A DNA stretch of 64,000 nucleotides, taken from NCBI RefSeq assembly GCF_965638725.1, contig NC_134962.1:7501-71500 (forward strand), read 5' to 3'. The position numbers and the translations under genes are program-made. The notes below the pieces were generated by a model, which was not told the origin of the DNA, did no database searches, and saw only the letters and a list, made by a program, of their open reading frames with translations. Of this stretch, positions 4,607 through 51,690 are shown one piece after another. How positions within the stretch are numbered: the stretch's first letter is position 1; every line of letters starts with the position of its first letter. The DNA comes from Aptenodytes patagonicus (lineage: Eukaryota; Chordata; Aves; Sphenisciformes; Spheniscidae).

Positions 4607-4680
4607 ACCTTCTTATGGTGCTCTGCTTGCCTCCTCTGTCACTCTTTGGTGCATGGCATCTGCAAAAACAGTATCGAATG

Positions 4681-17390: not shown

Positions 17391-19290
17391 TGAAAAAAAA
17401 AGTGGAGACCTGGATAGTTTATGCTGTGTCTCTAGTGACTTTGTCGTACCTCCCCTCAGCTGCAGAGGGACTAAAACAGAACAGACCTCATTGACACCCA
17501 AAACCAACTGCAAAATGAGTCTGAGAAAGGCTGATGAACTCTCCTCCCTTTCCCAACCATCCCCCAGTCCCAAAACTTTCAAAACCCCTTCTCTTCTCCT
17601 GAACTGTCAGGGAAGGAATCCCACTCCTTTCTGACAGCTCCTTCCCTGTATTCGCAACCCCTGACCCCCCTGCATCGGCCGCTCCTCAGGAGCTGGTCTT
17701 CTGAGCCACGCCCTACTTCTGCAGGCACCTCCTATCTTCTGTCTTCCTACAGACTCTGGACTCTGCTACAGGCCCACAAGATACATGAAGACCTGATACT
17801 TACAATCTACAAGGGGCCTGCTGCAAACTGCAAAGGCTCTAAAGACAACATGGTACTCTGTGGGCAATCAGAAAAGGTGATGAGCTGTCCCATACCCTGA
17901 AAGACACTACACCTTACATACCGGCCACTTTCTTGAGTAATGCTAAAGCTCCATATGCAGATACACATAAGATGCTCACCTTAAGCCCTACTAGATAGTC
18001 TCACCATCAGTCCTACTAAGACAGATTATACCAGCAACTTACGAAGTATACAGCAAAACTGATAAGAACATAAGGTTCTATCTTCAATAAAGTCAGGAAT
18101 TCCAGAAAAAAAGCAATGTACCTAGAACAAAAAAGAAAAATAATGCATACTATCAAACCATGTTGCTCCTCCCAAACACTCAATACAAAATTACTGACCA
18201 GAAAAAAAAAAACCCAAACTGCATATGAGTATACTTCCCACTATATAACTTGCTTAACCTTAGCTACTACTGAAGCTCCTACCTCAGACACCCGTGCTTC
18301 TTTAAATATCAAAACACATCTACCTAATTACCTTAACCAGCTCAAAAGCTGCAATTGAGCAAAGGAACAGTAGAGCACTAACACCAGAGAAGCCCAAGAG
18401 CAGAATGAGCTCCATGACCAGAGGCTGTGGCTCATATACCCCACGATCCACCCACCACCCTTCCCACAACCCCCTGGGAAAGGGGAGGGACCAACCACCT
18501 GAAGGCATAAAGGCGGCCAGACGAGCAGCAGCTCCTCTCATCTGCCTTAAGTTTACAGCGTGCAAAGCGCAGACCAGAGAAGGTAACCCTTACTGGAAAC
18601 AATGACACCTGCTGTCTTACTACAATGACATCTATTGCATCAGCGACGTGACCAGGTAGGGAATTAAACTTAATTTTTCTGGGGTGTAGATAGAAAAAGA
18701 TAGATGTCATACTAAACTATGTAGGAAGCTAGCTCATTAAATGCAATAACAATATTATTATCAAAAATTACATGCTTTAGGTTCCTATAAAAAAAACAAA
18801 ATGCTATGGGGTTACGCTTCATTTCTAGCAAGACCGCGTGCGCTACCTAACTTCTACCAGAACTACGTTCTGGATACGACTGAATGACAAAGCAGAATTA
18901 AATCCCGTAAGAATGCCTTCTTAAAAATATCTCTGGTTGCCAAGTAAACTATTTACTGTAAATGACCGGCGATTCAGAGTCACCTCGACAGCCTCTCCGA
19001 CTGACTCCCTTAACAGAACTAGATGAGTCCCAAAGGACAGAAAGCAGAAAAACCCCATGGAAATACAAGAAATGTATCAGAAGCTGTACGAAGCAGCCTA
19101 ATTAACACCTAAGTAGCTAGAACAAAAGTGAATTGCAAAACACAACAAAAAACACCTCAGGAGCTGGGTCGATAAAAATAGATGAAGGCTATCGCCTTCT
19201 CTGAAAAACTCAAGAGAAGATCTGAGCTGACAATAAACATCTTTGGGTACCAGATACCACATAGAAACATACTATAAGACAGAAAACAGA
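17391..19290. other. No gene seen; unique-looking interval
   Basis: Moderately AT-rich sequence between the 2.1-kb array and the purine arrays. Only short open frames occur (up to 92 codons on the minus strand at 18432-18710), with no recognisable domain. No RNA gene or mobile element was recognised. Confidence 0.5.
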
Positions 19291-25800: not shown

Positions 25801-26673
25801 CAAGGCTCAGTGCCCAAATGCAGCAGGACAGAGGGAGACAAGGGAAGAGAAAAGCAGGAGGAAGGACAGAGGGACATAGAGAAGAGGTGCAGGACAGGGA
25901 GCCAGAAAACGGGACGCTGTGAACAAGAGAGGGACGGGGAGCAGGAAAACAGTGTAGAGAGAGGAGAGCAGAGAGATTGCAGGGAAAACATAGGGAGAGA
26001 GAGATGGAGGAATAAATGAGAGAGACAGGGAGTGGGAGAGAGAGGCGTAAGGGACCAGCAGGACAAGAAGATACAGACAAGAGATGGGGAAAAATTCTAA
26101 AGCGACAGGGGAAAAGAAACATAGGCAAGAAGTAAAAAATAGAAGCAGGGAGCTGGATAGAGGTAGATGTAGAAAGAAAATTTTGAAAAGCGACAGGGTA
26201 CAAGAAACATAGGCAGGAACTAACAAATAGGGACAGGGAGATAGAGGGAGATGTAGAAAGAAAATGTATAAAGTGACGGGGTACAGGACAGAGAGGGAAG
26301 AATAAATAACCATAGACAAGCAGATGGATAGAGGGAGACGTAGAAAGAAAATTTTGAAAGCGACAGGATACAAGAATCTTATACAAGAATTAAAAGATAG
26401 GTACGTGGAGCTGCATAGAGGGAGACGTAGGAAGAAAATTTGAAAAGCGACGGGGTACAAGAAACACTGGCAAGAAATTAAAATTAGGTCAGGGAGACAG
26501 AGAGAGGGAAAGGTAGTAAGAAACTTTAAAAAGCGACTGGGTTCAAGAAACACATGCAAGAATTAAAAAAAGAGGGATGGAGAGGTAGAAAGAAAGCTTC
26601 AAAAGCAATGGGGTACAAGAAACACAGGCAAGAATAAAAAAAAAATAGGGACAGGGAGCCTGATGGAAGGAAC
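25801..26673. repeat. Purine minisatellite, ~80-bp period
   Basis: Tandem phrases such as gagggagacgtagaaagaaaa, followed by gcgac(a/g)gg(g/a)tacaagaaacataggcaagaa. It is the same family as the arrays at 22.3 and 36.4 kb. It is interrupted on the right by a solo LTR at 26674. Confidence 0.8.
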
Positions 26674-27775: not shown

Positions 27776-28337
27776 TGTCATGGTTTAACCTCAGTCAGCA
27801 ACTGAGCACCACACAGCTGCTTGCTCAGTCCACCCCCCCGGTGGGATGGGGGAGAGAATCGGAAGAGTAAAAGTGAGAAAACTTATGGGTTGAGATAAAA
27901 TCAGTTTAATAATGGAAATAAAATAATAATAATAATAATAGTAATAATCATAATAAGAATATACAAAGCAAGTGATGCACAATGCAATTGCTTACCACCT
28001 GCCAACTGATGCCCAGCCAGTCCCCGAGCAGCGGCCACCCTGGCCAGCTTGCCCCCAGTTTATATACTGAGCATGATGTCACATGGTATGGAATATCCCT
28101 TTGGCCAGTTGGGGTCAGCTGTCCTGGCTGTGCCCCCTCCCAGCTTCTTGTGCACCTCCAGCCTTCTCAGTCGGTAGAACATGGGAAGCTGAAAAGTCCT
28201 TGACTAGCATAAGCACTACTTAGCAACAACTAAAACATCAGTGTGTTATCAACATTATTCTCATACTAAATCCAAAACACAGCAGTATACCAGCTACTAG
28301 GAGGAAAACTAACTCTATCCCAGCCAAAACCTGGACA
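27776..28337 (-). repeat. ERV 3' LTR
   Basis: Begins tgtcatggtttaacc and ends ...ccaaaacctggaca on the plus strand (TG...CA ends on both strands). A TATATAAA box on the minus strand sits at 28059-28066. An (AAT)n tract follows at about 27920. Compared by eye with the other LTR there are roughly 15 substitutions plus small indels. Confidence 0.9.
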
Positions 28338-28731
28338 GCATCCACCCCTTATTCTATACCATCTATGTCATGCCCAGCTCCCCCACTTTCCAAAACATTC
28401 CCATTAATCACCACCCCTTTTCCTGTTTTTTGATATATATACAGCACAGATATCATTCCCTTAGTCTATAGGCCATCCCTCTAAAATATTCGTTGAGTTC
28501 ATTTAGTCCATGACTTTGGGCTCCATCTGTCCTAATAATCTTTCAGGGCAGGAAAGATGGAGATGGTATGCGGTGTTGGATTTTTTCATGTTGAAGTCAG
28601 TTCTGGTTCCATAATCACTGTGCTTTGCTCGGTTTCATCAAAGTTCATTCTTCATTAATCTGGGTGATTCTTATTGTAATATCATTGGTATGGCATATAA
28701 TATTGTAGCAAGTAACATCATATAGTTCAAA

Positions 28732-31700
28732 TCATTGGCTATTCTCACACAAAATCAAATCCCCTTGAGGTACACATCGGACTTCCCCATCCTTCCGCAT
28801 TATCCACCAAGTGCACCCAGATCCTTGAGCAAAAGCAATCCCATGGACGGGTTTGCCTTTGCCCGAGGCAGGAATAACCCAGACTGTCTTCCCCAACATA
28901 TTTTTTATGTGCACTACAGGGACTTTATTCTCATCTACAGTACGTAAAAGTTTTGACTGGGCAGGGCCAGCTCCATTGGCAGATCCCCTAGTGTTGACTA
29001 ACCAGGTGGCCTTTGCTAAGTGTGTAGCCCAATGTTTGAACGTCCCGCCACCCATTGCTCTCAGTGTAGTCTTTAACAGTCCATTGGATCGTTTGATTTT
29101 CCTGGAGGCTGGTGCATGACAGGGGATGTGGTATACCCACTCGATGCCGTGCTCTTTGGCCCAGGTGTCTATGAGGTTGTTTTGGAAATGAGTCCCGTGT
29201 CTGACTCAATTCTTTCTGGGGTGCCATGCATAAGACTTGCTTTTCAAGGCCCAGGAGAGTGTTCCAGGCAGTGGCATGGGGACAGGATATGTTTCCAGCC
29301 ATCCGGTGGTTGCCCCCACCATTGTAAGCATATGGTGCTTGCCTTGGCGGGTTTGTGTGAGTGTGATATAATCGATCTGCCAGGTCTCACCATATTTATA
29401 TTTCAGGCATCGTCCTCCATACCAAAGAGGCTTTAACCGCTTGGCTTGCCTGATCGCAGCGCATGTTTCACGTTCATGGATAACTTGTGCAATAGTGTCC
29501 ATGGTCAAGTCCACCCCTCGATCACGAGCCCACCTGTATGTTGCATCTCTTCCTTGGTGACCTGAGGTGTCATGGGCCCACCGAGCTAGAAATAATTCAC
29601 CCTTATGTTGCCAGTCCAGATCCACCTGAGCCACTTCAATCTTAGCAGCCTGATCTACCTGCTGGTTGTTTTGATGTTCTTCAGTGGCCCGACTCTTGGG
29701 TACGTGAGCATCTACGTGACGGACTTTTACAGCCAGGTTCTCTACCCGGGCAGCAATATCTTGCCACAATGCGGCAGCCCAGATGGGTTTGCCTCTGCGC
29801 TGCCAGTTGCTCTGCTTCCATTGCTGCAACCACCCCCACAGGGCATTTGCCACCATCCATGAGTCAGTATAGAGATAGAGCCCTGGCCACTTTTCTCAGT
29901 CAGCAATGTCTAAAGCCAGCTGGATGGCCTTTACTTCTGCAAATTGGCTCGATTCACCACCTCCTTCAGCAGTTTCTACAACTTGTCGCATGGGACTCCA
30001 TACAGCAGCTTTCCACCTCCGATGCTTTCCCACAATACGACAGGACCCATCAGTGAACAGAGCATATTGTTTCTCATTTTCTGGTAGTTTATCATACATT
30101 GCAGCCTCCTCAGCATGCGTCACCTCCTCCTCCTCTGGTGATATTCCAAAATCTTTGCCTTCTGGCCAATCCATAATCACTTCCGAGATTCCTGGGCGAC
30201 TGGGGTTTCCTATTCGAGCCCATTGTGTGATCAGTGCGACCCACTTACTCCACATAGCATCAGTTGCATCATGTGTATGGGGGATCCTCCCTTTGAACAT
30301 CCAGCCTAGCGCTGGCAGTTGGGGTGCCAGGAAGAGCTGTGCTTCAGTGCCGATCACTTCCGAAGCAGCTCAAACCCCTTCATATGCTGCCAGTATCTCT
30401 CTTTCAGTTGAAGTATAGCGGGCCTTGGATTCTCTGTATCCCCGACTCCAAAACCCTAGGGGTCGACCTTGAGTCTCCCCTGGTGCTTTCTGCCAGAGGC
30501 TCCAGGTAGGGCCGTTCTCCCTGGCTGCGGTGTAGAGCACATTTTTTACATCTTGTCCTGCCCGGGCTGGCCCAAGGGCTACTGTATGAATTATCTCCTC
30601 TTTAATTTGTTCAAAAGCTTGTCGTTGCTCAGGGCCCCATATGAAATCATTCTTCTTCTGGGTCACTTGATAGAGAGGGTTTACAATCAGACTGTAATTT
30701 GGAATATACATTCTCCAAAAACCCACAACACCTAAGAAAGCTTGTGTTTCCTTTTTGCTAGTTGGTGGAGACATGGCTGTTATTTTGTTGATCACATCCA
30801 TTGGGATTTGACGACGTCCATCTTGCCATTTTATTCCTAAAAATTGGATCTCCTGTGCAGGTCCCTTGACTTTACTTTGTTTTATGGCAAAACCAGCCTT
30901 CAGCAGGATTTGGACTATTTCCTTCCCTTTTTCAAAAACTTCTCCTGCTGTGTTGCCCCACACAATGATGTCATCAATGTATTGCAGGTGTTCTGGAGCC
31001 TCGCCCTGTTCCAGTGCGGTCTGGATCAGTCCATGGCAAATGATGGGGCTGTGTTACCACCCCTGAGGCAGTTGGTTCCAGGTGTACTGGACGCCCCTCC
31101 AAGTGAAAGCAAACTGTGGCCTGCACTCCGCTGCCAAAGGGGTTGAGAAAAAAGCATTAGCGATATCAGTTGTGGCACACCACTTGGCTGCCTTTGGCTC
31201 CAGTTCGTATTGAAGTTCTAGCATGTCCAACACAGCAGCACTCAGCAGCGGCGTGACTTCATTCAGGCCACGATAGTCTACTGTTAGTCTCCACTCTCCA
31301 TTAGACTTTTGCACTGGCCATGTGGGACTGTTACAGGGTGAGCAAGTCTTGCTGATCACTCCTTGGCTCTCCAGTCAATGAATCAACTTATGGATGGGAA
31401 TCAGGGAGTCTTGGTTGGTGCGATATTGCTGCCGGTGCACTGTCGTGGTAGTGATTGGCACCTGTTTGTCTTCCACCTTCAGCAACCCCACAACAGAATG
31501 GTCCTCCGAGAGACCAGGCAAGGTGGACAGCTGTTTAATTTCTTCCATCTCCAAAGCAGCTATACCAAAAGCCCACCAGTACCCTTTGGGGTCCTTGAAA
31601 TACCCTCTCCTGAGGTAGTCTGCCAAGGATGCACGGAGCCTCTGGGCCAGTCACAATGGGGTGCTTTTGCCACTCATTCCCAGTTAGACTTACTTCGGCT

Positions 31701-31960
31701 TCCAATACAGTTAGCTGTTGGGATCCCCCCATCACTCCAGAAATACAGATGGGTTCTGGCCCCTTATAGCTTGATGGCATTAGGGTACACTCTGCACCGG
31801 CGTCTACTAGTGCCTTATACTCCTCTGGGTCCGATGTGCCAGGCCACTGAATCCACACAGTCCAGTAAACTTGGTTGTCCCTTTCCTCCACCTGGCTGGA
31901 GGCAGGGCCCCTCTAGTCCTCATCATAGTATTCGTTTCTCATTTCCTGTAAATACGAGTC
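28732..31960 (-). pseudogene. ERV pol remnant (PR-RT-RNase H-IN)
   Basis: Protease-like 31535-31891 has VDAGAECTLMP, with DAG in place of the usual D(T/S)G. RT spans about 30370-31359, with TDIANAFF, LPQGW and YIDD (30970-30981) and a stop right after LPQGW at 31054. RNase H has FTDGSC, AEVKA, YTDSW and VDAHV, with a stop after LALDIAD at 29896. The integrase zinc-binding region (HDTSGH) and first catalytic Asp (WQIDYI) are present. A stop follows at 29206, and near it the second Asp before GTHF is replaced. The later Glu position reads KIKRSNG, so it appears to be Lys. Apart from the protease segment, the pieces share one frame. Both catalysis and translation are broken. Confidence 0.88.
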
Positions 31961-32059
31961 AGAAGTCTCTTCATTAAGATCAGAAGTAAGATCGGCCCTT
32001 CTACTCTGTCTGGGAAACTGCCCACCGGAAACTGGAGCATCAATTTTCCTGGATGAACC

Positions 32060-33280
32060 CCCTTTTGTGATTGTTTTTCCTTGCAACTCACATACCTGTG
32101 CCTCTAAGGCTGAGGTAGGTTTTCCATAGCACTCCTTGTGTCCTCTCCGTGGTTACGCAGGTAAAACCATAGGGTGCCCCGTGGTGTGTACCCTTTATAT
32201 CCTCTCTCTTGAGCAAAAGAACGCTGACTCCTAATAGCAGAGATACTGGTACGTACAAGTGGGGAGTAGGACCTATCCTCTTCAAGTTGCTGGACCTTCT
32301 GGGACAGTTTCTCCACAGCTGAGACGAGGGAGGAAGAGAGACTTTCTTTATATTGCCGGAGTTGACCAGCCAATTCATCCACCATTTGTCCCTCTCCATC
32401 TTTCCAGGTCATCACTGCTGATGTGTTGGCATATGATGATGGCGCGCTCCGTACAAACTTCCGCCACGTGGGTCGTGTGCACTTGACTTCATCTGGATCT
32501 TTGGATAGCTGTTCATTGTTCAGGTCACCATAAATCACCCCCAGCATGGCTAATTCCCTCAGGTATTGGATACCCCTCTCCATGCTGGTCCACTTGCCTG
32601 GGTGACTTATAACATCTTCCTTGAAGGGATACCTTTCCTTGACACTTGACAGGAGTCACCTCCAAAAGCTGAGGACTCGTGTCCCTTTTCCAATCGCTTT
32701 GTCAATGCCCCCTTCCCTAGAAAGGGATCCCAGCTGCTTGGCTTCTTTACCCTCTAATTCCAGGCTACTGGCCCTGTTATCCCAGCATCAGAGCAGCCAG
32801 GTGACAATATGCTCGCCTGGACAACGGCTAAAATCTTTTCGTATATCTCACAGCTCACTCAGGGATAGAAGATCGGGTGGTCACGGCCTCGTTTATGAGT
32901 TCTTCCTCTTCTTTCTCCCTGGGCAGCGGCTGGCTCTCCTCCTCCTGTTCTCGTGATAGCCCTACTCCAGGGTAGTCTGCCTTGTACACTTCTTCCTCCC
33001 TTACTAAACGAGACAACTTCCGCTTCCAAGATTTCTTCTTGTGTATAGGGGCAACTGATACCGGCACAGGTTGGTTCTTTGGTTCAGCTGCAGTGCCTGT
33101 TGCCAGGGTCGGAGTGGCCGCAGTGCCTGTCGTTTTATCGTCTGATCCAGAGACCTTCTCTTCCCCTTGAGGGTACTGAGTAGTGTTGAACAGGGCTCGG
33201 TAGGCATGGGCCAGGCCCCAGCACGTTGCAGTGATCTGTGTCTCTCTGGAGCTGCCAGGGTGACAGCATACTTTTTCCAA
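32060..33280 (-). pseudogene. ERV gag remnant
   Basis: Open pieces 32855-33280 (141 codons, with a Lys-rich stretch followed by an acidic Glu-rich run) and 32104-32583 (159 codons, a Q/E/L-rich helix-like segment) lie in different frames, so at least one frameshift separates them. I did not find a clear CCHC zinc knuckle. Assignment to gag rests on position between leader and protease. Confidence 0.7.
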
Positions 33281-33349
33281 CTATCCTACTAATTTTTCAG
33301 GATTCTGCACCTGTTCAGGGGTGAAGTTCCAAAACACTGGCGGTGCCCA

Positions 33350-33907
33350 CTATCCTAGGCATTTGCCCACGCTATCCCACACACCCTGCCACTCATAACT
33401 ATCCACCCTTGGGGCAGATCTCTGGATAATATTCTTAAATTGCTTATTAACCTTAGACAAAACTGAAACAATATTCCCAAGAAATACCAATAGAAGTATC
33501 TTAACTACCCAAGGATGTTCAAGATACTGAAAAGTTACTGTAATGAAGGAGGAAACATCATAGAAGAAGGTAGCGAGGCTGCCATTCTGTATTTCCTCCA
33601 TAAAAAACCTCTCAGAGGAAGGACTGTAATTGCTAATTGTCTCCATGAAGTGGTACCCGAAGTACAGTAATGGCTTCAGTACAAAGCTCAAATAACAGAT
33701 TAAGCTCAAGGCCAGTGTTTTATTAACAAACCTCCCAGGCAAAACAAACCTCCCAGGCAAAACATCACTAATCACCGCAGACCACAGTAAACTGCAAAAA
33801 CCAACACTAATCTTTAACATGTACAGCAAAAAAAAAAGAGCATGATGCAGATCAGATAAACTAATATCGAGAACAGATGAATCAATATTGTGACCCACAA
33901 CTGTCAA
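33350..33907 (-). pseudogene. ERV gag 5' part: hydrophobic N-terminal ORF
   Basis: A 185-codon open frame between the primer-binding site and the recognisable gag region, in the same frame as gag ORF 32855-33280 and separated from it by two stop codons. It has at least three hydrophobic stretches (around ALFFLLYMLK, LALSLICYLSFVL and VVKILLLVFLGNIVSVL). An 18-bp tandem duplication makes LPGRFVLPGRFV. A multi-span hydrophobic segment at the start of a gag precursor is unusual. It could instead be a separate leader product. Confidence 0.55.
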
Positions 33908-33966
33908 CAGATATAAATTCCTTAATGTGCTCTGGTTAATCTGTTATATTATCTCAAACCCTTTGT

Positions 33967-33984
33967 GCCCCACGTTGGGCGCCA
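33967..33984 (-). other. ERV primer-binding site, tRNA-Lys(1,2) type
   Basis: On the minus strand TGGCGCCCAACGTGGGGC follows the 5' LTR after four bases. It is an exact match to the tRNA-Lys(1,2)-type primer-binding site used by many betaretroviral and class II elements. Confidence 0.85.
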
Positions 33985-33988
33985 ACGT

Positions 33989-34558
33989 TGTGGTTTAACC
34001 TCAGTCAGCAACTGAGCACCACACAGCCGCTCGCTCACTCCCCGCCCCCCCCCCGGTGGGATGGGGGAGAGAATCGGAAGAGTAAAAGTGAGAAAACTCA
34101 TGGGTTGAGATAAAATCAGTTTAATAATGGAAATAAAATAATAATAATAATAATAATAATAGTAATAATCATAATAAGAATATACAAAGCAAGTGATGCA
34201 CAATGCAATTGCTTACCACCCGCCAACCGATGCCCAGCCAGTCCCCGAGCAGCGGCCACCCTGGCCAGCTTGCCCCCAGTTTATATACTGAGCATGATGT
34301 CACATGGTATGGAATATCCCTTTGGCCAGTTGGGGTCAGCTGTCCTGGCTGTGCCCCCTCCCAGCTTCTTGTGCACCTCCAGCCTTCTCAGTCGGTAGAG
34401 CATGAGATGCTGAAAAGTCCTTGACTAGTATAAGCACTACTTAGCAACAACTAAAACATCAGTGTGTTATCAACATTATTCTCATACTAAATCCAAAACA
34501 TAGCAGTATACCAGCTACTAGGAAGAAAATTAACTCTATCCCAGCCAAAACCAGGACA
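33989..34558 (-). repeat. ERV 5' LTR
   Basis: Same family as the 3' LTR. The inner end reads tgtggtttaacc, lacking a few bases of tgtcatggttt. The (AAT)n tract near 34138 is longer than in the other LTR, and a C11 run lies near 34045. The outer end is ...aaccaggaca. Confidence 0.9.
34280..34287 (-). promoter_or_regulatory. TATA box of ERV 5' LTR
   Basis: TATATAAA on the minus strand at the expected place in the LTR, with the R/U5-like part on its 3' side. The same box is present in the 3' LTR at 28059-28066. Confidence 0.6.
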
Positions 34559-35104
34559 GGTGGACAGAGATAAACTGAGACATACCAAAAAACCTCGACG
34601 AGCTGAAGGGAAGAGACAGAGGAATTAAAGAATAGGGACAGGGAGAGAAGGATGAAGACAAAAATGGGCTATGGGACAGATAGGGAAGAAATTAAAACAT
34701 AGGGACAAGGACCTGGAAAGAGAGAATCTAAGAAAGAAGACATATATCTAGAATACAGGGCAGAGAGAGAGGGATTTAAAAATAGGGACATGGAGCCAGA
34801 TGGAGGGGCGGGGGGAACTGCGAAGGGCTAAAGGGCAGATAGAGAGGAATTAAAAAAAAATTAGGATAGGAAGACAGATAGATGGAGAAAGACAAAAATA
34901 GTGATGGGCTGCAGGACAGAGACAGAGGATGGAAAAAAAGAGGGACAGGGAACAGGACAGAAGTGCAGAGAGACAAAGGAAATGGAGAGGTAGTACAACA
35001 GAGACAGAGGGGGACTTGGAGAACAAGAAAGGGAAAGGTGCAGGGAAACAAAAAAATGACAGAAGTGAAAGAGGAGTGGGGGCAGAGAGGGACTGGGATG
35101 CAGA
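34559..35104. repeat. Purine minisatellite right of the provirus
   Basis: Tandem phrases aattaaa(g/a)aatagggacaggga and agatggagaaagacaaaaatagtgatgggctgcaggacagag: the array that the provirus split. Confidence 0.8.
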
Positions 35105-36000
35105 AGAGTGACAACACGTCCCCAAGGGGTCCAGGACTCTACACAGCTCCTGCTCTTGGAGCTGCGGGAAGAATTTGACAGTTTGGACATGTCCTTCTTT
35201 GTGTCCCACTCTCTCCCTCCTCTGTAGCTCCAGTCACTTGACTGTCCTCCACCTAAGAGAATAGATTGATGTCTTACAGCTCTTACAATATGAGGCTGCC
35301 AAGATACATAGCCTCACACGCGCACACACTACTTGGCCATACTGTGCTTTTGGTTACGCATACAGACCCTGCGGAGCACATTGGTGATCGGATCTGCTGA
35401 GGACTACACTAAGAGGGAACCTTCCTCACCCAGAGAGGCAGGCTTTCTCTTGCCTGCAGCAGGAGGCAGCTGCCGGCCGGATGGCCTTTGATTTCTTCTT
35501 CTTTACCTTTCTCTGGCCTCTCCAGCTTCAGCCGCGGCAGCTCCTGTCCACAGCCAGTAAGTGCTCCGCCTGTCCCTTTCCACCCATGCCGCTAGGAGAA
35601 TGAGGCCAAAGGCAACCCACACAAACCTGAGCCAGCAGCCATCAACAGCATCCCCAGAGAGGAACCGACAACTGAGTCCTCAGTGCTGCCTCTGGGAGAG
35701 GGAAAGAACAAGCAACTGTTAGCCACAGTGATGACTGTAGCTCTCCTCAGGCAGGAACCCCTCCTTCTGCAGGAGCTGCTGGAGACAGGGGTTGGGGACA
35801 GTCTGTGGCTACGGGACAGGCTTCAGGGGAGGTGCTGGAGCTGGGGGGGAGCTGCATAGGGTGAGCTGGGCTAGAAGAGTTTTGCTGAGTTGGGGAGGCA
35901 CTCAGCACCTTTTCCAGGGGGTGGGAAGGCCTCCAAGTACCCAGAGGGGTGGGGGCAGCCATCTCCTGCCCCTCTTCCCACTTCCTCACCACCAGCTCTC
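35105..36000 (-). pseudogene. Module copy A: stalk + TM-like exons, frameshifted
   Basis: Read on the minus strand, a Pro/Ser/Thr-rich open frame (35747-35992, with SSSTSPEA and SPAAPAEGG) comes first. Then comes exon-like Y (35507-35691, acceptor after TTCCCTCTCCCAG, donor GTAAAG) and exon-like X starting at 35252 after TCTCTTAG. Y is 4 bp shorter than its copy at 45.4 kb, so its frame is shifted. Past the shift it encodes a hydrophobic stretch, FVWVAFGLILLAAWV, followed by ERDRRS. The donor of X is changed (GTAGAG). The layout recalls a type I membrane protein's stalk, transmembrane segment and short tail, but I do not recognise the family. Confidence 0.4.
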
Positions 36001-36059
36001 AGAAAATTCCCGGGAGCTGCCGTGATGGGGCCTGACTCCAACTGACCACAAACCTGTCA

Positions 36060-36440
36060 GTTGGAAACATCCTTGCAGCTCGTCAGCATTCTCAGACAGG
36101 CATGGCCCAGCAGCACCACCTCCTGGGGCTGCAGCCCTTTTACACAGAGGGGCCATCACCATCAGCCTCACTGGCCCCACCTGGGGCTCCTCCAGCCCCA
36201 GCCCACAGCTGCAGCCATGGCCCCTGACACCCACTGCGTAACCTGCTCCCCTGGACTCTCTGACAGCCCCTCACCAAGTACAAAGCACTACAAACACAGC
36301 CATGAGTGCAAAGGAGACAGCAAGTGTTCATTCGTTAATGTGTATAAGTCCCAGGAGTGAGTCTACTCCAGGGCTCGGTGCCTGTACACTCACCCTTCCT
36401 CTGGGACAACTTGGCAGTCGTTCCTGGAGCAGCAGGTACA
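36060..36440 (-). repeat. Module 3' region, copy B (polyA signal altered)
   Basis: Homologous to 25490-25800 and 41830-42170 (cctcactggcccc... and ctgcagccatggc phrases). The AATAAA seen in the other two copies reads AATGAA here on the minus strand (ttcatt near 36328-36333). Confidence 0.45.
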
Positions 36441-39329: not shown

Positions 39330-40012
39330 GAGGGTCCGGGACTCACCGCAGCTCTCGCTCTCAGCACTGCCAGGAGAATTTGCCCGTTTAGATGTTTCTT
39401 TCTCCTTCTCTCCTCCCTTCCTCTTCTGTAACTCCAGTCACTTGGCTGTCCTCCACCTAAGAGAATACGTGGGTGTCTTACAGCTCTTACAATATGAGGC
39501 TTCCCAGACACATAGCCTCGCTCGCTCGTGCACTATGTGGCCATACCATGCTGCTGGTGACACATACAGACTCTGCGGTGCACGTTGGCAGCATGACCTG
39601 CTGTGAACTACGAAGAAGGATCCTTCCTCACCCAGAGGCAGGCTTTCTCTTGCCTGCAGCAGGAGGCAGCTGCCGGCCGGATGGCCTTTGATTATTTCTT
39701 CTTTACCTTTCTCTGGCCTCTCCAGCTTCAGCCGCGGCAGCTCCTGTCCACAGCCAGTAAGTGCTCCGCCTGTCCCTTTCCACCCATGCCGCTAGGAGAA
39801 TGAGGCCAAAGGCAACCCACACAAACCTGAGCCAGCAGCCATCAACAGCATCCCCAGAGAGGAACCGACAACTGAGTCCTCAGTGCTGCCTCTGGGAGAG
39901 GGAAAGAACAAGCAACTGTTAGCCACAGTGATGACTGTAGCTCTCCTCAGGCAGGAACCCCTCCTTCTGCAGGAGCTGCTGGAGATGGGTTGCGGGCAGT
40001 CTGTGGCTACGG
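39330..40012 (-). pseudogene. Module copy B: TM-like exon and tail exon
   Basis: Exon-like X spans 39347-39456 (acceptor TTCTCTTAG, donor GTGAGT; frame 1 begins VEDSQVTGVTEEE and then stops). Exon-like Y spans 39707-39891 (donor GTAAAG). From about 39640 to 39985 it matches copy A at a constant 4200-bp offset with only about one difference. Left of that it is much closer to copy C. It carries the same frameshift in Y as copy A. The NRF1-like array begins directly on its minus-strand upstream side. Confidence 0.4.
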
Positions 40013-41215
40013 CTCAGCAGCAGCGAGCGCGGTGAAAAGCTCAACTGCGCATGCGCAGCAATTTAGCTGCAGTACCGGCTTTTGATCACCGGGCGGCAGC
40101 AGCGTGCGCGCTGTAACGCTGAAATGCGCATGCGCGTGCCTCAGCTGCAGTACTGGTATTTGCTCACCAGGTGGTAGCAGAGAGCGCAGCATAATGCTCA
40201 AACGCGCATGCGCAGCTCCTGAGTTGCAGTAACGGCTTTTGATCACCGGAAGGCAGCAGCGAGCGCTGTGTAACACCCTAGTGCGCATGCGCAGCGACCA
40301 TCCTGCAGTACCGGCTTTTGATCACCCGGCGGCAGCAGCGAGGGCGGCGTAACGCCCAACTGCGCATGCGCAGCACTTGAACTGCAGTACCGTATTTTGA
40401 TCACCGGCTGGCAGCATCGAGCGCGTTGTAACACCCCACTGCGCATGCGCATCGTCCCTCCTGCAGTACCGGCGTTTGATCGCCGGGCGGCAGCAGAGAG
40501 TGCGGCATAATGCTCAAATGCGCATGCGCAGCGCTTCAGCTGCAGTACCGGCTTTTGATCATCGGGCAGCAGCAGCGAGCACGGTGTAACGCTCCAATGC
40601 GCATGCGTGGAGCTTCAGCTGCAGTACTGCATTTTGGTCAAGGGGTGGTAGCATCGAGCGCGGTGTAACACCCCTCCACCGCGACCGTACTGCAGTACCG
40701 GCTTTTGATCGCCGGGGGGCAGCAGCGACCGCGTTGTAACACCCCACCGCACATGCGCAGCGCCTCTCCTGCAGTACCGACTTTTGATCACCGGGCGGCA
40801 GCAGAGAGCGCGGCGTAACGCTCCAATGCGCATGCGCGGTGCTTCCGCTGCAGTACCGCATTTTGATCACCGGGCGGCAGCAGAGAGCGCGGCGTAACAC
40901 CCCACCGCGCATGCGTAGCGTCCATCCTGCAGTACCGGCTTTTGATCACCGGGCGGCAGCAGAGAGCGCGGCGTAACGCCCCAATGCGCATGCGCGGCGC
41001 TTGAGTGGCAGTACCGCATTTTGGTCACCGGGTGGAAGCATCGAGCGCGCTGTAACACCCCTCCACCCATGCGCTGCGACCGTACTGCAGTACCGACTTT
41101 TGATCGCCGGGCGGCAGCAGCGAGGGCGGCGCAACGCTCAACTGCGCATGCGCTGTGCTGGAGCGGCAGTACCGCATTTCGGTCGCTGGGCGGCAGCAGC
41201 GAGGGCAGGGGCACG
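40013..41215. repeat. 79-bp tandem array with NRF1-like and CTCF-like sites
   Basis: About 15 units. A TGCGCATGCGCA-type palindrome, the NRF1 consensus form, starts at 40046, 40125, 40203, 40282, 40361, 40440, 40519, 40598, 40748, 40827, 40906, 40985 and 41143, with a degenerate copy at about 41064. The spacing is 78-79 bp except one 150-bp double step where a palindrome is lost. Each unit also has ctgcagtaccg and a CACCGGGCGGCAGCAG box resembling the CTCF core. It is very CpG-rich. Minus-strand open frames here change frame each unit (79 is not a multiple of 3) and are not genes. Confidence 0.85.
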
Positions 41216-41299
41216 CGTTCTCGGGGCGCGGCCGCACGGCTTGTCGGGGACCAGGCGCAGCGGGAAACCAGCAGAAAATCACACGAAACCGGCAACAAC

Positions 41300-41549
41300 A
41301 CTACACCTCATGCCGCGCCGCGGGGGCCGCGGCGGTAGCAAGGACTACGCTGCGCCACGCTCGCCCGAGAGCCGTGCGGTTGCCCGGCAGCCACGTCCGC
41401 GAAAACTACACCTCCCGGCACGCACCGGTAGAGACAGCACGCCCGCCCGGCAGCAGTGACGGAAGACTACACCTCCCGGCATGCTGCGGGGAACCAACAT
41501 GGCCGACCGGAAGCCCCGTGCCCCCCCCGGACTACAGCTCCCGGCATGC
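41300..41549 (+). promoter_or_regulatory. Run of ZNF143/THAP11-like sites
   Basis: Copies of ACTACACCTCCCGGCATGC or close variants start at 41300 (ends early as actacacctcatgc), 41344 (weak), 41405, 41466 and 41531, about 44-65 bp apart. The motif matches the ACTACAAYTCCCAGCATGC-type element bound by ZNF143/THAP11 in vertebrate promoters. It lies in the CpG-rich stretch right after the 79-bp array. Confidence 0.6.
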
Positions 41550-41837
41550 CGCGGGAGGCAGCCCTCCCTGCTCTCTGACCCTGCGGGGACACCGTTCTCC
41601 CCGGCCGATGTACCCGGAACCCCCACCGAGCCCCCAGCGCAGCCCCGCGCAGCCCCCGCTGCACGGCTCCCACACGGCGCGGCCCCCCTCCCTCCCCCGG
41701 CCTCGCCGCCCCCCTCGCCCGCCGCCCACTCCGCTCCTCCCTTGGCTCACACCGGCCCTTCCACGGCCACCCGGGGCACGGCAGCCCCACCACCAGCCCC
41801 ACAGCCTGCAGCTACTCTGGCAACACACCCCCTTTAA
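41499..41837 (+). CDS. Candidate Pro/Ala-rich ORF starting MADRK
   Basis: An ATG in a good vertebrate context (accaacATGGCC) follows the ZNF143-like site at 41466 by about 15 bp and opens a 112-codon frame rich in Pro and Ala (PPPASPPPSP). CpG-rich DNA often has long chance frames. No splice donor of GTAAG/GTGAG type is obvious nearby and no domain is recognisable. It may be chance, or a first exon of a plus-strand transcript from the bidirectional-looking promoter region. Confidence 0.2.
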   Translation: MADRKPRAPPGLQLPACRGRQPSLLSDPAGTPFSPADVPGTPTEPPAQPRAAPAARLPHGAAPLPPPASPPPSPAAHSAPPLAHTGPSTATRGTAAPPPAPQPAATLATHPL

Positions 41838-42189: not shown

Positions 42190-45040
42190 CTCCTGGAGCG
42201 ATGGGCTGCAGGGCAGAGGCGGAGGCCACTAAAAATGAGGAACAGGGCGCAGGATACTAGAAGAGAGAAGTGGCAGCCAGCTGGACAGCAGCAGTGTAGC
42301 AAGAAAGCATGAGGCAGGGAACGGGACAGTGAGAGAAAGATGGGGACAAGGAGCCCAACAGAGATGAAGAAGGAACAGGGAGAGAGGAAGAGAGGCAGCA
42401 GAAAGAGGGAGAAGGAGCAGGAAAGAGACCGATAAAGAAGGTCAGGGAGCAGGATGGAGGTGCAGAAAAAAATGGGGATGGGCAGCATGACAGAGAGGGA
42501 GGAAAAAAGAATAGGGGCAGGGAGCCAGGACAGCAAATGATGGAGGGAAGGGGTGGGGCGAGGGGAACAACACAAAACAAACCACATGGCTACACGCTAC
42601 AGGGCAGAGAGGGAAGAATTAAGAAACAGGGACAGGGAGCCAGAAAAAAAGAGAGCTAGAGAGCAAAAAGAATAGTAATGTGAACAGAAAGAAGAGGGGG
42701 GGAATTCTAAAATAGGGTCACGGGGGAGCCAGAGACAGTGAGATGGAGAAAGGACAAAAGCAACAGGCTACAGGGCGGAGAGGGAGGAATTAACGAATAG
42801 GGACAGAGAGCTGGCCAGAGAGAGATGGAGAAAGGCAAAAGATCACATGGGCCACAGGACAGAGAGGGAGAAATTGATAAATAGGGACAGGGGACCAGAC
42901 AGAGCACGAGCACAATGGAGAACAGAAAAAAATAGCACTGGGCTACAGGGAAGAGGGAGGAATTAAAGAACAGGGACTGGGAGCTGGACAGAGAGACATG
43001 GAGAAAGAAAAAAAATAAAACAGCGATGGGCTACAAGATGGATAGAGGGGGAAATAAAAAATAGCAGCAGGGAGCCAGACAAAGAGAGATGGAGAAAGAC
43101 AAACAAGTAGCGTGGGGCTATGGGACAGAGAACGTGGAATTAAAACATGGAGAGAGGGAGCCGGACAGAGAGAGAGACCGAGGGGAAAGTCCAGACAGGC
43201 TACAGGGGGCAGAGGGAGGAATGAAAAACTGGGGACAGGGAGGTGGACAGAGAGAGATGGAGATCTCAGGGAATAGCGGTGGGTGCAGGAAGAAGAGGGA
43301 GGAATTAATAAATAGGGACAGGGAGCTGCACAGAGAAGGACGGAGAAATGCAAAAATAGCGGCGGGGTACAGGGCAGAGAGGAAGACTTAAAAAATGGGG
43401 GCAGTGAGACAGACCTAGAGAGATGGAGAAAAGAAAAAAGCAACGCAGCAGACGGGGAGGAATTAAAAAACAGGGACGGGAAGCAAGAAGGAGTGAGCTG
43501 GAGAAAGGCGGGGGGGAACCCAAGGGGCACTAGGACAGAGAGGGAGGAATTAAAAGTGAGGGACGGGGAGCTGGGAAAGGAGAGGTGAAGAAAGAAACAG
43601 AATCGCAATGTGCTATGGGGCTGAGAAGGAAGAAACTGAGCAACAGGGACAGGGAGCTGGACAAAGAGAGAAGAGGAGACACAAATAATAGCATTGGGCT
43701 ACAGTGCCAAGAGGGAGAAACTGAAAAATAGAGACCAAGAGCCAGAAAAAGGAGAAACAGAGAAAAAACAAATCGCAATAGGCCACAGGACAGAGAGGGA
43801 GGAATTAAAAAACCAGGACTGAGAGCAATCTACAGAGAGATGTTAGGGAACGAAAATTTAAAGAGCGATGCGTACAGGACAGAGAGAGGGGAATTAAAAA
43901 AAATAAGTAAAGGCAGGCACAGGGAGCCCGACAGAGACACACAGAGAAAGAAAAAACAGCAGTGGGCTACAAGACAGATAGGGACAAATTTAAAAATCCT
44001 GGCAGGGAGCCAGACAGGGAGAGCCAGCTAAACAAATGAAATCGCAATGTGGCACAGGGCCAAGAAGGACAAAATTGAAAAACAGGGCATAGGAGCTGGA
44101 AAGAGAGAGCCAGGGAAAGAAAAAACTACCGATACGCTCTAGGGCAGAGAAGGAGGAATTTTAAAAATCAGGGTCTTGAGCCGGACCGAGAGAGACAGAG
44201 GAAATAAAAATGGTGATGGGTAACAGGGCAGAGAGGAAGGAATTAAAAAACAAGGACAGGAAGCTGGGCAGAGAGACTGAGAAAGGGAAAAGTCCCGACA
44301 GGCTTCCAAGAGAGAGAGGGAGGAATTAAAAATTAGAGACAGGGAGTTGGACAGAGAGAGACGGAGAAAGACAAAACTGTGGCGGGCTACTGGACAAAGG
44401 AGAGTTTAAAAATGGGGACAGCAAGACAGACAGAGAGGAAGGAAGAAAGGAAAGACGCTATGGGCGACACGGCAGAGAGGGAGGAATGAAGAAAGTGGGA
44501 CAGGGAGCCAGACAAACCGAGACAGGGAAAGAAGACTACAGCAACAGGCTAGGGGACAGAGAGGGAAGACTTAGGAAAACAGGGACAGGGAACAAGACAG
44601 AGTGACATGGAGAAAGGACAAAATAGCGATGGGCAACAGGACAGAGGGAGGAATTCAAAATGAGGGGCAGGGAGCAGGATAAAGAGAGACAGAGAAAGAA
44701 ATAGACTCGCAACATGCTACAGGGCCAAGAAGGAAGACCTTGAACAACAGGGACAAGGAGCCAGACACAGAGAGCCAGAGACAGCAAAAATACCAACGGG
44801 CTACAGGACAGAGAGGGAGGAATGCAAAAATAGTGGCCGGAAGCCGGACAGAGAGAGACGGAGAAGGAAAAAATAGCCATAGGCTACAGGGCAGAGAGAG
44901 AGGGAGGACCTAAAACATGGGGACAGGGAGCCGCTCAGAGCAAGATGGAGAAAGGAGGTACAGGGAAGCAAAAAAAAAAAAAAAATTGCAGTAGCATGGG
45001 AAAAAGAGGGGGCCAGGGGAGGGGCAGGGAGGGACCAAGA
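42190..45040. repeat. Purine minisatellite, module C
   Basis: About 2.8 kb of gggacagggagc(c/t)(a/g)gacagagagagatgg, an aaagaaaaaatagcgatggg-type segment and ctacagggcagagagggaggaatt. Units of roughly 75-90 bp are more regular than at 36.4-39.3 kb. The longest minus-strand frame is 221 codons (42943-43608), again low complexity. A poly-A run (about 15) lies near 44973. Confidence 0.85.
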
Positions 45041-45065: not shown

Positions 45066-46080
45066 GAGGGCCCAGGACTCACTACAGCTCTCACTCTGGG
45101 CGCTGCCGGGAGAATTTCCCAGTTCAGACGCTTCTTTCTCCTGCTCTCCTCCCTTCCTCTTCTGTAACTCCAGTCACTTGGCTGTCCTCCACCTAAGAGA
45201 ATACGTGAGTGTCTTACAGTCTTACAAGACGAGGCTTCCTAGACACATAGCCTCGCTCGCTCGCGCACTACGCGGCCGTACCATGCTGCTGGTGACACAT
45301 ACAGACCCTGCGGTGCACGTTGGCAGTCTGACCTGCTGCGGACTACGAAGAGGTATCCTTCCTCACCTGGAGAGGCAGGCTCTCTCTTGCCTGCAGCGGG
45401 AGGCAGCTGCCAGCCGGCCGGCCTTCGATTTCTTCTTCTTTACCTTTCTCTAGCCCCTCCAACTTCAGCCGCGGCAGCTCCTGTCCACAGCCAGTAAGCG
45501 CTCCGCCTGTCCCTTTTCACCCCCACGCTGCGAGAGCGAGGCCAGGCAGAGACAACCCACGCAAGCCTGAGGTGAGTGCAGTCAACAGCATCCCCAGGGG
45601 ACAAACGGAAAACCACATCCTCAGCGTGGCCTCTAGGAGAAGGAAAGAAGCAGCAGCTACCGTTACTACCGTAGATCGCCCCTGGCCGAATCCCCTCTTT
45701 CTGCAGGGGCTTCTGGAGACGCCGCTCCTTCCCCGCACTGCTGCTAACGGCACCCGCGATAAGGGAGAATCACGCACTTTCGAGGGCCAGCTTGCAGCCT
45801 TCACTATAGGGCTTGGGGGCGGCCTGGGGCTACGGTACAGGCTTCAGGGGAGGTGCTGGAGCTGGGGGCAGCTGCACAGGGCGAGCGGGGCCGGGGGAGG
45901 CTTAGGGAGAGCTCTGGTGAGTTGGGGAGGCGTCCGGCGCCTGCGTCTGGGGGGGTGTCCGCCTCCTTCCCCTCTTCCCTGCTATCAGCTCTTGGGTAAG
46001 TCCCTGGGGCTGACCTGATCCGGCTCCCCTCCAGCGGACCGGGAGCCTGCCGCAGAGGGAGGTTTGAAGCTTCCCGTTCC
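45066..46080 (-). pseudogene. Module copy C: best-preserved exon-like set
   Basis: Exon-like X is 45083-45192 (acceptor TTCTCTTAG, donor GTGAGT; frame begins VEDSQVTGVTEEE). Exon-like Y is 45444-45632 (189 bp, acceptor after CTTCTCCTAG, donor GTAAAG). Unlike copies A and B, Y is open throughout in one frame (62 codons, containing LSPGDAVDC and KRDRRSAYWLWTG). A Pro/Ser-rich stalk-like frame at 45804-46030 (SPCAAAPSSSTSPEA) lies upstream on the minus strand. Y ends in phase 2 while the conserved frame of X starts in phase 0, so a simple Y-X join is not in frame. Function is unknown; it could be a decayed gene copy or a non-coding transcript. Confidence 0.4.
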
Positions 46081-46142: not shown

Positions 46143-46168
46143 CTCACCGGCGGCCAGTGCGCCGCCAT
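46143..46168 (-). CDS. Candidate first coding exon (MAAHWPPV...)
   Basis: On the minus strand gagcagcATGGCGGCG is a textbook CpG-promoter start context. The frame runs eight codons plus two bases and meets AG|GTGAGC, a consensus donor (end at 46143). An NRF1-like palindrome (46184-46195) lies 16 bp upstream. A possible next exon begins after CTCCCTCTGCGGCAG at about 46051, and its join keeps the frame open. It leads towards the module C stalk and TM-like exons. No transcript evidence is available. Confidence 0.35.
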
Positions 46169-46540
46169 GCTGCTCCCGGGCACCGCGCATGCGCGGGACG
46201 CCGATGGCGCGCCGGCGCGCGATCGTCGTGCTGCAGCACCGCGTTTCGGCCACCAGGCGGCAGCAGCAGCGAGCACCCGCCGGGCGGCGCGTGCCCGGGG
46301 GCGGCACCGGCGCCGCAGTTCCGCGCTTTGTGCGCTGAGCGCCCGCCGACACCGCGCACGTGGGGCGGCAGCGGCGTTTCCTTAACGGGAGGCAGCAACG
46401 AGCGCGGCGGCACCGTTCCGCAGGCACCGCGGCATCGCATTGCAGTTACCGGCAGACGACAACGTGGATCACAGGGACGCCACCGCGCATGCGCGGCTCC
46501 CGAGTGGCAGTACTGGCTTTCGGTGGCCGAGCATTTAGCG
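46150..46540. repeat. Second NRF1/CTCF-like array (CpG-rich)
   Basis: Diverged relatives of the 79-bp unit. CGCGCATGCGCG occurs at 46184-46195 and 46484-46495, with degenerate copies near 46286 and 46353. CCACCAGGCGGCAGCAG at 46250-46266 fits the CTCF core closely. The ctgcagcaccg and cagtactgg phrases of the unit are also present. Confidence 0.7.
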
Positions 46541-48408: not shown

Positions 48409-49015
48409 TGTCATGGTTTAATCCCAGCCGGCAACTAAGCACCACGCAACCGCTCACTCACTCCCCCCACGCCCCGTGGGATGGGAGAGAGAATCAGAAG
48501 GGTAAAAGTGAGAAAACTCATGGGTTGAGATAAAAACAGTTCAATAACCACAACAACAACCACAACCACCAACCACAACCACTTGTAAGGAAAAGAGAAA
48601 AACATAAATGACAAAGAGATAAAAATAAAACCCAAGAAAGACAAGTGATACAAGTGAAAACAATTGCTCACCACCAACCGACCGATGCCCAGCCAGTACC
48701 CGAGCAGCAGTCCCCCCACCAATCTCCCCCCCCAGCTTTATATGCTGAGTGTGACGTCATATGGTATGGAATATCCCTTTGGTCAGTTGGGGTCAGCGTC
48801 CTGGCTGTGTCCCCTCCCAGCTTCTTGTGCACCCCCAGCCTACTCGCCAGTGGGGTGGTGTGAGAAGCAGAAAAGGCCTCGACTGTGTAAGCACTGCTCA
48901 GTATTAACTAAAACATCCCTGTGTTATCAACACTGTTTTCAGCACAAATCCAAAACATAGGCCCATACTAGCTACTATGAAGAAAATTAACTCTATCCCA
49001 GCGAAAACCAGCACA
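48409..49015 (-). mobile_element. Solo LTR related to the provirus LTRs
   Basis: Starts tgtcatggtttaatcccagc and ends ...agcgaaaaccagcaca. It is the same family as the proviral LTRs at 27.8 and 34.0 kb but clearly diverged, with a CAACAACC-type tract in place of (AAT)n. CATATAAA lies on the minus strand near 48737. The flanks (ccttg and gggtt) do not show a duplication. No internal sequence is attached. Confidence 0.85.
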
Positions 49016-49400
49016 GGGTTCCCATAGCCTTCAGTTTGCTCCTTTGCTTTTCCTAACCCTTTTATTTTTTCATCTCCATGTTTTCCTTAAGCATTGTGCA
49101 CAGCACTGTTATCCCAGACCGGCCATATTAGAAAGTCCTCCTGCACAGAGGGTTAAGAAAGATCTCTAAGCAAAAAAGGAGAAAAAAAATCTGGTAGTCA
49201 TCTACATGCCCAACCATCAACAGTCTCCACCAAAAGATGCTGTAAATTCCTTTTCCTCTAAAAGGCTACCGAGCGAAGGAGAGAAAGGTCCCACCCGATA
49301 CTTATTCAAACACCTCTTACAAACTAATCTGTTATGAATAAAAATCAAGATTCTATTAACAATAGCAGATAACTACTTACTTACACAACACATAGTGTCA
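49016..49400. other. No feature seen
   Basis: AT-rich spacer right of the solo LTR. No gene, RNA or known repeat recognised. Confidence 0.4.
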
Positions 49401-51124: not shown

Positions 51125-51690
51125 CTAACCAGAACTCCGGTGAACTGCACCAAACCACGCCTGCGTGAGCCTGCAGGATGCAGTGCGCATGCGCAAGCCC
51201 CGCGGCTGCAGTACTGAGGAGTAATCGAGGGAGGGCACCAGTGAGCACGGCAGGAAGCAGTGCGCATGTGTCAGTCGGCTGGCTGTAGCACTGGAGTCTA
51301 ATGACGAGAGGGCAGCGCTGTGCACGGCAGGATATACTGCGCTTGCGTAAACCCATTGGCTGCAATACCGCCTGGGTCTCCGGGAAGGGCAGTAGAGAGC
51401 ATCCCCTTTCAAACTGCTTGCGCGAGGTTTTTGTCTGCACTACTGGGCTGAATCAACAGGGGGCAGCAGGAAGCACCACGGGCTGCAGTGCGCATGCGTC
51501 ATGCATCTGGCTGCAGCACTATAGGACGTTCAAGAGAGGGCACCAATAAGCATAGCGGGCTGCTGTGCCCATATGCGCGTGCCGGGCACGTGCAGTACTG
51601 GACTGTAGTCGAGAGGTGGCAGCAGTGTAGTAGGGTCAGCCTCACTGCGCCTGCAACGAGACTTCTGCATGTAATGAGGCGTGAGCTTTC
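51125..51690. repeat. Third NRF1/CTCF-like array, ~77-bp period
   Basis: Seven diverged units. The palindrome or its relic starts at 51184, 51261, 51338, 51415, 51489, about 51572 and about 51646. Most units carry a CTCF-like box: cgagggagggcacc, acgagagggcagc, and CAACAGGGGGCAGCAG at 51454-51469. The phrase ctgcagtactg is shared with the 79-bp array. Confidence 0.75.

Follow-up and report, generated by a model that had tools for sequence, protein, structure and literature searches.

A penguin tandem array that pairs CTCF-type and NRF1-type sites in a 79-bp unit: a candidate CpG-island regulatory element

A stretch of 64,000 nucleotides from Aptenodytes patagonicus (the window, i.e. the whole stretch of DNA that was analysed) contains a tandem array, array B, whose 79-bp unit combines both halves of a long CTCF-type site with an NRF1-type palindrome. 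The two kinds of site are repeated in a set order, spacing and orientation, they are better matched than the spacers in a diverged array of the same window (array D), and the CpG content of array B is high. CTCF is a loop-anchoring protein and NRF1 is a methylation-sensitive activator. The explanation that we favour, with a probability of roughly 0.6, is that array B is a one-directional CTCF-NRF1 regulatory element within a CpG island, serving as promoter or boundary and derived from an amplified composite unit. The coordinates of the features are collected in Table 1.

Table 1. Array B, the related arrays and the neighbouring features (positions within the window; M1, CTCF-type core; M2, CTCF upstream half; o/e, observed/expected)
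Feature	Position	Strand	Details
Main array (B)	40017..41203	+	about 15 head-to-tail 79-bp units; Tandem Repeats Finder, unit split, bipartite and NRF1 patterns
CTCF-type bipartite sites in B, 34 bp	first complete 40068..40101; also 40146, 40225, 40304, 40383, 40462, 40541, 40691, 40770, 40849, 40928, 41007, 41086, 41165	+	pattern search, at most 3 mismatches
NRF1-type palindromes in B, at most 1 mismatch	first 40046..40057; starts 40046, 40125, 40203, 40282, 40361, 40440, 40519, 40598, 40748, 40827, 40906, 40985, 41143		pattern searches
Rest of CpG island	41204..41800		GC 0.74, CpG o/e 0.91; directly right of B
ZNF143/THAP11-type boxes (three)	41405..41549 (41405, 41466, 41531)	+	2, 1 and 1 mismatches to the assumed consensus
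Conserved block of about 660 bp left of B	39330..39985		self-BLAST; relatives 35079-35786, 45066-45719
Degenerate array (C)	46160..46540	+	palindromes 46184, 46484; bipartite CTCF-type site 46232-46265, 18.7-bit core
Diverged array (D)	51160..51665	+	six 75-78-bp units, of which three combine M1 of at least 6 bits with M2 in the 33- or 34-bp arrangement; a single palindrome (51184, at most 1 mismatch)

Organization of array B

Tandem Repeats Finder reported a period of 79 with 15.1 copies at 40017-41203, together with overlapping rows of periods 158, 237 and 466. Splitting array B at the invariant word GCAGTA produced 15 unit starts, and 12 of the 14 steps between them were exactly 79 bp, the other two being 78 bp and 71 bp, in agreement with the 79-bp tandem array claimed in a preliminary description of this DNA. 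The units lie in a single orientation, each in the order CTCF upstream half (M2), CTCF-type core (M1) and NRF1-type palindrome; individual units are without one or other site, and the whole array retains both.

Identity between units was determined for 12 of the 15, after setting aside those of 78 and 71 bp and the incomplete final one. At even lags it was 0.81-0.83 (lags 2, 4, 6, 8 and 10), apart from lag 12 with its one pair at 0.71, and at odd lags it was 0.68-0.77. Because even-lag identity exceeds odd-lag identity, array B seems to have grown partly through two-unit steps, which supports the earlier proposal that a single unit was tandemly amplified. Origin as a protein-coding repeat was also considered and was rejected, since 79 is not divisible by three and the open frames shift from unit to unit.

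CTCF-type and NRF1-type sites

The constant TGCAGTACC of each B unit corresponds to the upstream (M2) half of a long CTCF site, and its position relative to the core reproduces the published 34-bp spacing. Printed CTCF sites carry TGCAGTACC or TGCAGTTCC followed by the core, with zinc fingers 4-7 binding the core and 9-11 the upstream half (PMC11194110, in excerpt). The two-part M1+M2 site of 33 or 34 bp has only two preferred spacings, according to a paper that writes the motif on the opposite strand and names the second half downstream (PMC3368268, in excerpt). The CTCF-like box noted previously is the core-type half of a longer bipartite element rather than a box standing alone. A pattern search for TGCAGTACC-N9-YCRCCGGGYGGCAGCA with at most three mismatches returned 14 matches in array B and one at 46232, against an expected number of 0.00.

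Sites were also scored with a 19-bp matrix that we take to represent the CTCF core and that underlies every bit score given here, a bipartite site qualifying if M1 scored at least 6 bits and M2 (TGCAGTWCC) matched at least 7 of 9 positions. With this assumed matrix, 12 of the 15 B units qualified, all in the 34-bp form (offset 15), against a mean of 0.006 qualifying sites and never more than one in dinucleotide shuffles of array B (n=500). Allowing offsets from 9 to 45 for the 15 B positions with M1 of at least 6 bits, M2 was found at offset 15 twelve times, at 25 three times, at 29 once and at 14 not at all. The 12 sites are copies of one founding event and thus count as a single observation. 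The rest of the window outside the arrays contained one qualifying site on both strands together, and the bipartite sites of arrays B, C and D were all on the plus strand, with none on the minus strand.

On the same assumed matrix, the cores of array B scored 6.1-13.1 bits in 12 of the 15 units and -2.1, 4.7 and 5.7 bits in the other three, the consensus core scored 9.6 bits, and three printed CTCF sites, in which the core starts 14 bases after the start of the upstream half, scored 21.9-23.9 bits. The best unit core of array B was exceeded by 0.002% of window positions. In one gel-shift study, a TGG triplet of the core oligo was critical (PMC5498337, in excerpt).

Searching for YGCGCAYGCGCR with at most one mismatch identified 13 palindromes in array B (9 exact and 4 with one mismatch), the number given in the preliminary description. 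That account recorded a single long step of 150 bp (40598 to 40748), to which another of 158 bp (40985 to 41143) has to be added; the two long steps arise because the units at 40621 and 41008 are without a palindrome. Across the 64-kb window there were 16 such palindromes, with two at 46.2-46.5 kb and one at 51.18 kb in addition to those in B, and at this threshold none was located outside arrays B, C and D. The pattern search of both strands returned 32 matches, compared with a mean of 0.36 and a maximum of 2 in 100 window shuffles, and with 13 palindromes in array B against 0.36 expected in the entire window on both strands, the NRF1-type sites proposed earlier are upheld. The distance from the first base of the 19-bp core matrix to the beginning of the palindrome core is 43 bp in 11 of the 12 qualifying B units, and the twelfth has no palindrome. 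When the 70 bp to the right of each of the four qualifying C and D sites are considered, only one site is followed by a palindrome, at a distance of 40 bp.

Diverged arrays and constraint

Arrays C and D fall outside the coordinates of the preliminary description. Together with the M2 half at the published spacing, they strengthen its claim of CTCF-type sites. Array C contains the top core score in the window (18.7 bits on the assumed matrix); the other two positions scored in C are without a core, and three of the six D cores reach at least 6 bits. Qualifying bipartite sites numbered one in C and three in D, with shuffle means of 0.002 and a largest value of one for each array, so that array C alone is weak because the shuffle maximum equals its single site. 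M2 was present at offset 15 for one of the two C positions with M1 of at least 6 bits and at offset 14 or 15 for three of the five in D, where three matches lay elsewhere. In a search with a profile of the B unit, the units outside array B with E below 0.01 were those at 46372, 51452 and 46233, while the others had E values of 0.04 and above. Since most of these E values are weak, order and motifs contribute as much as overall similarity to the case that C and D are related to B.

Constraint was assessed on an alignment of six D units, 14 B units and four C stretches. Agreement of array D with the B consensus was 0.76 in M2, 0.64 in the core and 0.71 in the NRF1 palindrome, against 0.38 in the 43 spacer columns. 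This difference between motifs and spacers was reached by none of 20000 column permutations and by one of 79 label rotations, namely the true one only. Within array B the corresponding values were 0.97 for M2, 0.91 for the core and 0.86 for the palindrome, compared with 0.79 for the spacers, and 2 of 79 rotations reached the difference. Because the alignment favours matches and the units within an array are related, these figures are indications and not exact probabilities. The better match of motifs than of spacers in array D is a pointer to a regulatory element.

Similar arrays in other contigs

Since a protein collection may hold read-through frames of animal DNA, a reverse-strand frame of array B was used as a probe. 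This single frame (E up to 10) had one match, P0121, a protein of 84 aa on a 560-bp contig (E 6.0e-20). When P0121 was aligned with three window frames and the alignment served as the query, P0123 (E 1.4e-19, 12.8-kb contig) and P0124 (E 2.8e-4, 2.0-kb contig) were added; scoring in this second search was confined to the 7992 candidates with the most shared words. All three proteins contain, in rotating frames, words that are compatible with the reverse complement of M2. The steps between these words were 44, 79 and 78 nt in P0121, 80, 80, 80, 79 and 90 nt in P0123, and 79 and 52 nt in P0124 (79 and 79 nt when a looser word was added by eye); the steps of 44, 90 and 52 nt are off period, with one word each. 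The observed count of pairs 77-81 nt apart was reached by 0 of 2000 shuffles for P0121, 0 of 2000 for P0123 and 6 of 2000 for P0124, the last being the weakest of the three. The amino acids of these proteins do not fix the underlying DNA, but all three look like read-throughs of similar arrays, which suggests that this type of array is no assembly accident of the window.

The unit patterns had no match in collections of viral contigs and prokaryote genome contigs, a result of little weight as these collections are without birds, and a profile-derived scan of the viral contigs (likewise without birds) gave 16 pattern matches of which none was confirmed. Among the titles and abstract openings listed by full-text searches of open-access papers, none named an avian array of paired CTCF-NRF1 sites, a kind of array of which the preliminary description also knew no avian example.

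CpG content and methylation

Array B (40017-41203) has a GC content of 0.626 and a CpG o/e of 1.12. CpG islands are defined by a GC content above 0.5 and a CpG o/e above 0.6 over more than 200 bp, and both 40017-41203 and 41204-41800 lie above these values. CpG o/e was 1.27 in array C and 0.68 in array D; among six comparison stretches it was 0.62 in the block adjoining C and 0.17-0.36 in the other five. The value of 1.12 in array B is compatible with germ-line hypomethylation, to which the TpG+CpA value of 1.42, which is not low, adds nothing. AT-rich skewed arrays at 22-25 kb, which are without CTCF- or NRF1-type sites, have a CpG o/e of 0.71-1.06. Because a high CpG o/e is thus found in these arrays too, and TpG+CpA is not low in array B, CpG retention alone is no proof.

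Every intact palindrome of array B contains CpGs. A CpG at core position 2, which is the reported methylation-relevant position of CTCF (PMC6600276, in excerpt), is present in 4 of the 15 units, so the methylation-sensitive part would be mainly NRF1. The idea of a methylation-sensitive cluster would accordingly apply to the NRF1 palindromes rather than to most of the CTCF cores. With so few position-2 CpGs, CTCF binding at array B should be mostly methylation-tolerant. However, methylation has also been described as hindering CTCF binding (PMC12408068, in excerpt), in which case CTCF may not be methylation-tolerant at array B. In a screen of transplanted fragments, CTCF protected DNA from methylation and lowered methylation when present, and NRF1 protected only and was without effect on methylated DNA (PMC8184831, in excerpt).

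Interpretation

The favoured explanation of array B as a one-directional CTCF-NRF1 element leads to the following model. CTCF, able to act on methylated DNA and to lower its methylation, would occupy some of the units and keep the stretch open. NRF1, which is blocked by methylation, would then bind the CpG-bearing palindromes and, in concert with the ZNF143-type boxes that lie 200-350 bp rightward, would drive or maintain CpG-island promoter activity. The many weak CTCF sites of the same orientation could jointly constitute a one-sided cohesin barrier. Given the orientation rule of loop extrusion and a CTCF core on the plus strand, loops anchored at array B would extend rightward out of the window. 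Repetition would provide redundancy, with single units losing a site while the array keeps both kinds, and labour would be divided within the unit, CTCF opening the DNA and NRF1 activating. We infer binding of CTCF and NRF1 at array B, and all the later steps, from the motifs. The moderate cores of array B, the single real core among the three positions scored in array C, the six D units of which three reach 6 bits, the lack of a nearby palindrome at three of the four qualifying C and D sites, the CpG o/e of 0.68 in array D, the TpG+CpA value of array B and a 35-kb relative of the flanking block without an array are points against this explanation.

Several other explanations were weighed against the same observations. 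Array B might be a plain CpG-island promoter array, whose NRF1 and ZNF143-type sites promote synthesis of a transcript of housekeeping or long non-coding kind, the CTCF-like boxes being weakly bound or not bound and having no boundary role. Strong NRF1 matches (9 exact of 13) beside three ZNF143-type boxes would be expected of such an array, and the CTCF cores of array B are indeed moderate. However, NRF1 alone leaves unexplained that M2 is the best-kept stretch (0.97 in B and 0.76 in D), and some cores of C and D (18.7, 12.0 and 10.9 bits on the assumed matrix, others being lower) exceed the B consensus of 9.6 bits, and we consider a plain promoter array unlikely. These higher scores also raise the possibility that the core of the founding unit was better than those of array B after homogenisation. 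At the other extreme, the bipartite sites of B, C and D are all on the plus strand with none on the other, as would suit a CTCF boundary with incidental palindromes, that is a DXZ4-like loop anchor without promoter activity, and mouse Dxz4 has 14 CTCF motifs in tandem orientation (PMC5899087, in excerpt). A boundary of this kind is nevertheless improbable, as array D keeps its NRF1 columns (0.71) about as well as its CTCF columns and the ZNF143-type boxes and a further 600 bp of CpG-rich DNA lie to the right.

Array B might also be a neutral GC-rich minisatellite, homogenised by unequal exchange, whose motif matches are fossils of the founding sequence. Under neutrality, the two-unit homogenisation pattern, the 35-kb relative of the flanking block without an array and the presence of several other tandem arrays in the window would all be unsurprising. 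The motif columns of array D are kept over the spacers (1 of 79 rotations), a similar period with compatible words is found in the proteins of three other public contigs, and CpG is not depleted, all of which make a neutral origin very improbable.

Comparison with known systems

Human TERRA promoters of the 61-29-37 type resemble array B in that a CpG island lies inside short tandem repeats with repeated NRF1 sites, two putative ones per 29-bp unit in TERRA, and they have a CTCF site nearby and methylation regulation through NRF1 (PMC6600276, in excerpt). The unit lengths differ, and in the excerpted TERRA description CTCF is about 300 bp from the NRF1 repeats, whereas array B has a CTCF-type site inside each unit. 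In addition, TERRA promoters adjoin telomeric repeats and are transcribed towards them, whereas the 64-kb window contains no telomere-type (TTAGGG) array (one match with two mismatches, against 6.37 expected).

DXZ4 and mouse Dxz4 share with array B, for the latter by motif only, tandem same-direction CTCF motifs within a repeat (PMC5899087, PMC3491370, both in excerpt), and the Dxz4 number of 14 is close to that of array B. The direction of this bank of 14 motifs sets the direction of contacts (PMC5899087, in excerpt), and CTCF binding is kept in mouse Dxz4 despite organisational differences from primates (PMC5899087, PMC3491370, in excerpt). DXZ4 units are several kb long (3.8-5.7 kb in mouse, in the same excerpts), compared with 79 bp in array B, and the pairing of CTCF-type with NRF1-type sites seen in array B goes unmentioned for DXZ4 in the excerpts of PMC5899087 and PMC3491370. 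Moreover, DXZ4 is tied to the inactive X, whereas array B is bird DNA. To our knowledge, birds have no X inactivation.

Array B has the two halves of the long M1+M2 CTCF site, arranged at 34 bp as in one of its published forms (33 and 34 bp; PMC3368268, in excerpt), but in array B this one site is copied about 15 times and joined to an NRF1-type site, and its cores score below the printed examples. At domain boundaries, clusters of CTCF sites likewise comprise several close CTCF sites near a promoter-like region; they contain old and young sites gained singly (PMC6945661, in excerpt), whereas array B consists of tandem 79-bp copies. Array B differs from TERRA promoters and DXZ4 in having both sites in one short unit.

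A wider and more tentative idea, possible though doubtful, is that birds have a family of short composite repeats, each with one directional CTCF site and one NRF1 site, whose amplification gave rise to CpG-island arrays maintained in different species. These arrays might be multi-copy switches, set by methylation, that couple loop anchoring to promoter activity, with copy number tuning strength, and the family would then be a functional counterpart of DXZ4 and the TERRA promoters. Array B provides, in natural and compact form, a set of CTCF-type and NRF1-type sites whose spacing is fixed. Were these sites bound, the array would offer a direct test of how CTCF, which can protect and demethylate DNA, licenses methylation-sensitive NRF1, and of how barrier strength depends on the number of copies of weak CTCF sites that face the same direction, and it would be a possible bird counterpart to mammalian CTCF repeat arrays.

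Genomic setting

The three ZNF143/THAP11-type boxes to the right of array B were recognized with a sequence that we take to be the consensus of these factors, to which the next best match in the window has 4 mismatches. On the left, array B follows one of three copies of a duplicated block (about 660-700 bp; 35.1-35.8, 39.3-40.0 and 45.1-45.7 kb; 78-83% identity). The 39-kb copy is followed by array B, the 45-kb copy by degenerate array C and the 35-kb copy by no array. Past the 35-kb block, the next shared stretch (36132 versus 41826, 71%) is reached after about 320 bp, not 1.8 kb, and 35814-36132 is without the 79-bp array and the CpG island found at the equivalent place beside B. The stretches 39680-39780 and 35480-35580, common to two of the duplicated blocks, are near-identical, with a pyrimidine tract, AG and a downstream GTAAGTGC; judged by eye, they could bound a very short exon.

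No host gene was found among 10 ORFs scanned against Pfam (of 205 ORFs of at least 90 aa), three of which had matches, all of mobile-element type. Rfam gave no match at gathering score in the window and none up to E 1 in 34.8-52.6 kb, and ARAGORN (bacterial code) gave no tRNA. A subtelomeric location was rejected, the window being without telomere-type repeats.

A 2.1-kb repeat is present at 4656-17402 in about six copies in tandem (identity between stretches 72-86%, CpG o/e 0.33), with a diverged partial copy at 1451-3152 (66-74%). The male-hypermethylated (MHM) region of chicken is a 2.2-kb BamHI repeat, and it was rejected as a counterpart of 4.6-17.4 kb, which contains a single BamHI site and is CpG-poor (0.33). 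Purine-rich arrays with a base period of about 72-87 bp and strong positive GC and AT skew occupy 22319-24542, 26099-26643 and 42740-44954 and adjoin the duplicated blocks; the segment at 36.4-39.3 kb has a similar skew and no array reported by Tandem Repeats Finder.

An endogenous retrovirus with minus-strand frames lies at 27781-34559. Its end repeats (27781-28338 and 33991-34559) are 95% identical, reverse transcriptase or RNase H domains were detected in two of four scanned frames, and a related end repeat is present at 48414-49017 (74-77%). Finally, 3222-4297 is a LINE remnant on the minus strand, which we take to be of CR1 type. The neighbouring frame at 3222-3770 had no Pfam match, and the frame at 3866-4297 encodes a reverse transcriptase domain that agrees with a bird source: its named relatives, among the best 120 of 168 matches, were from crane, stork and godwit only.
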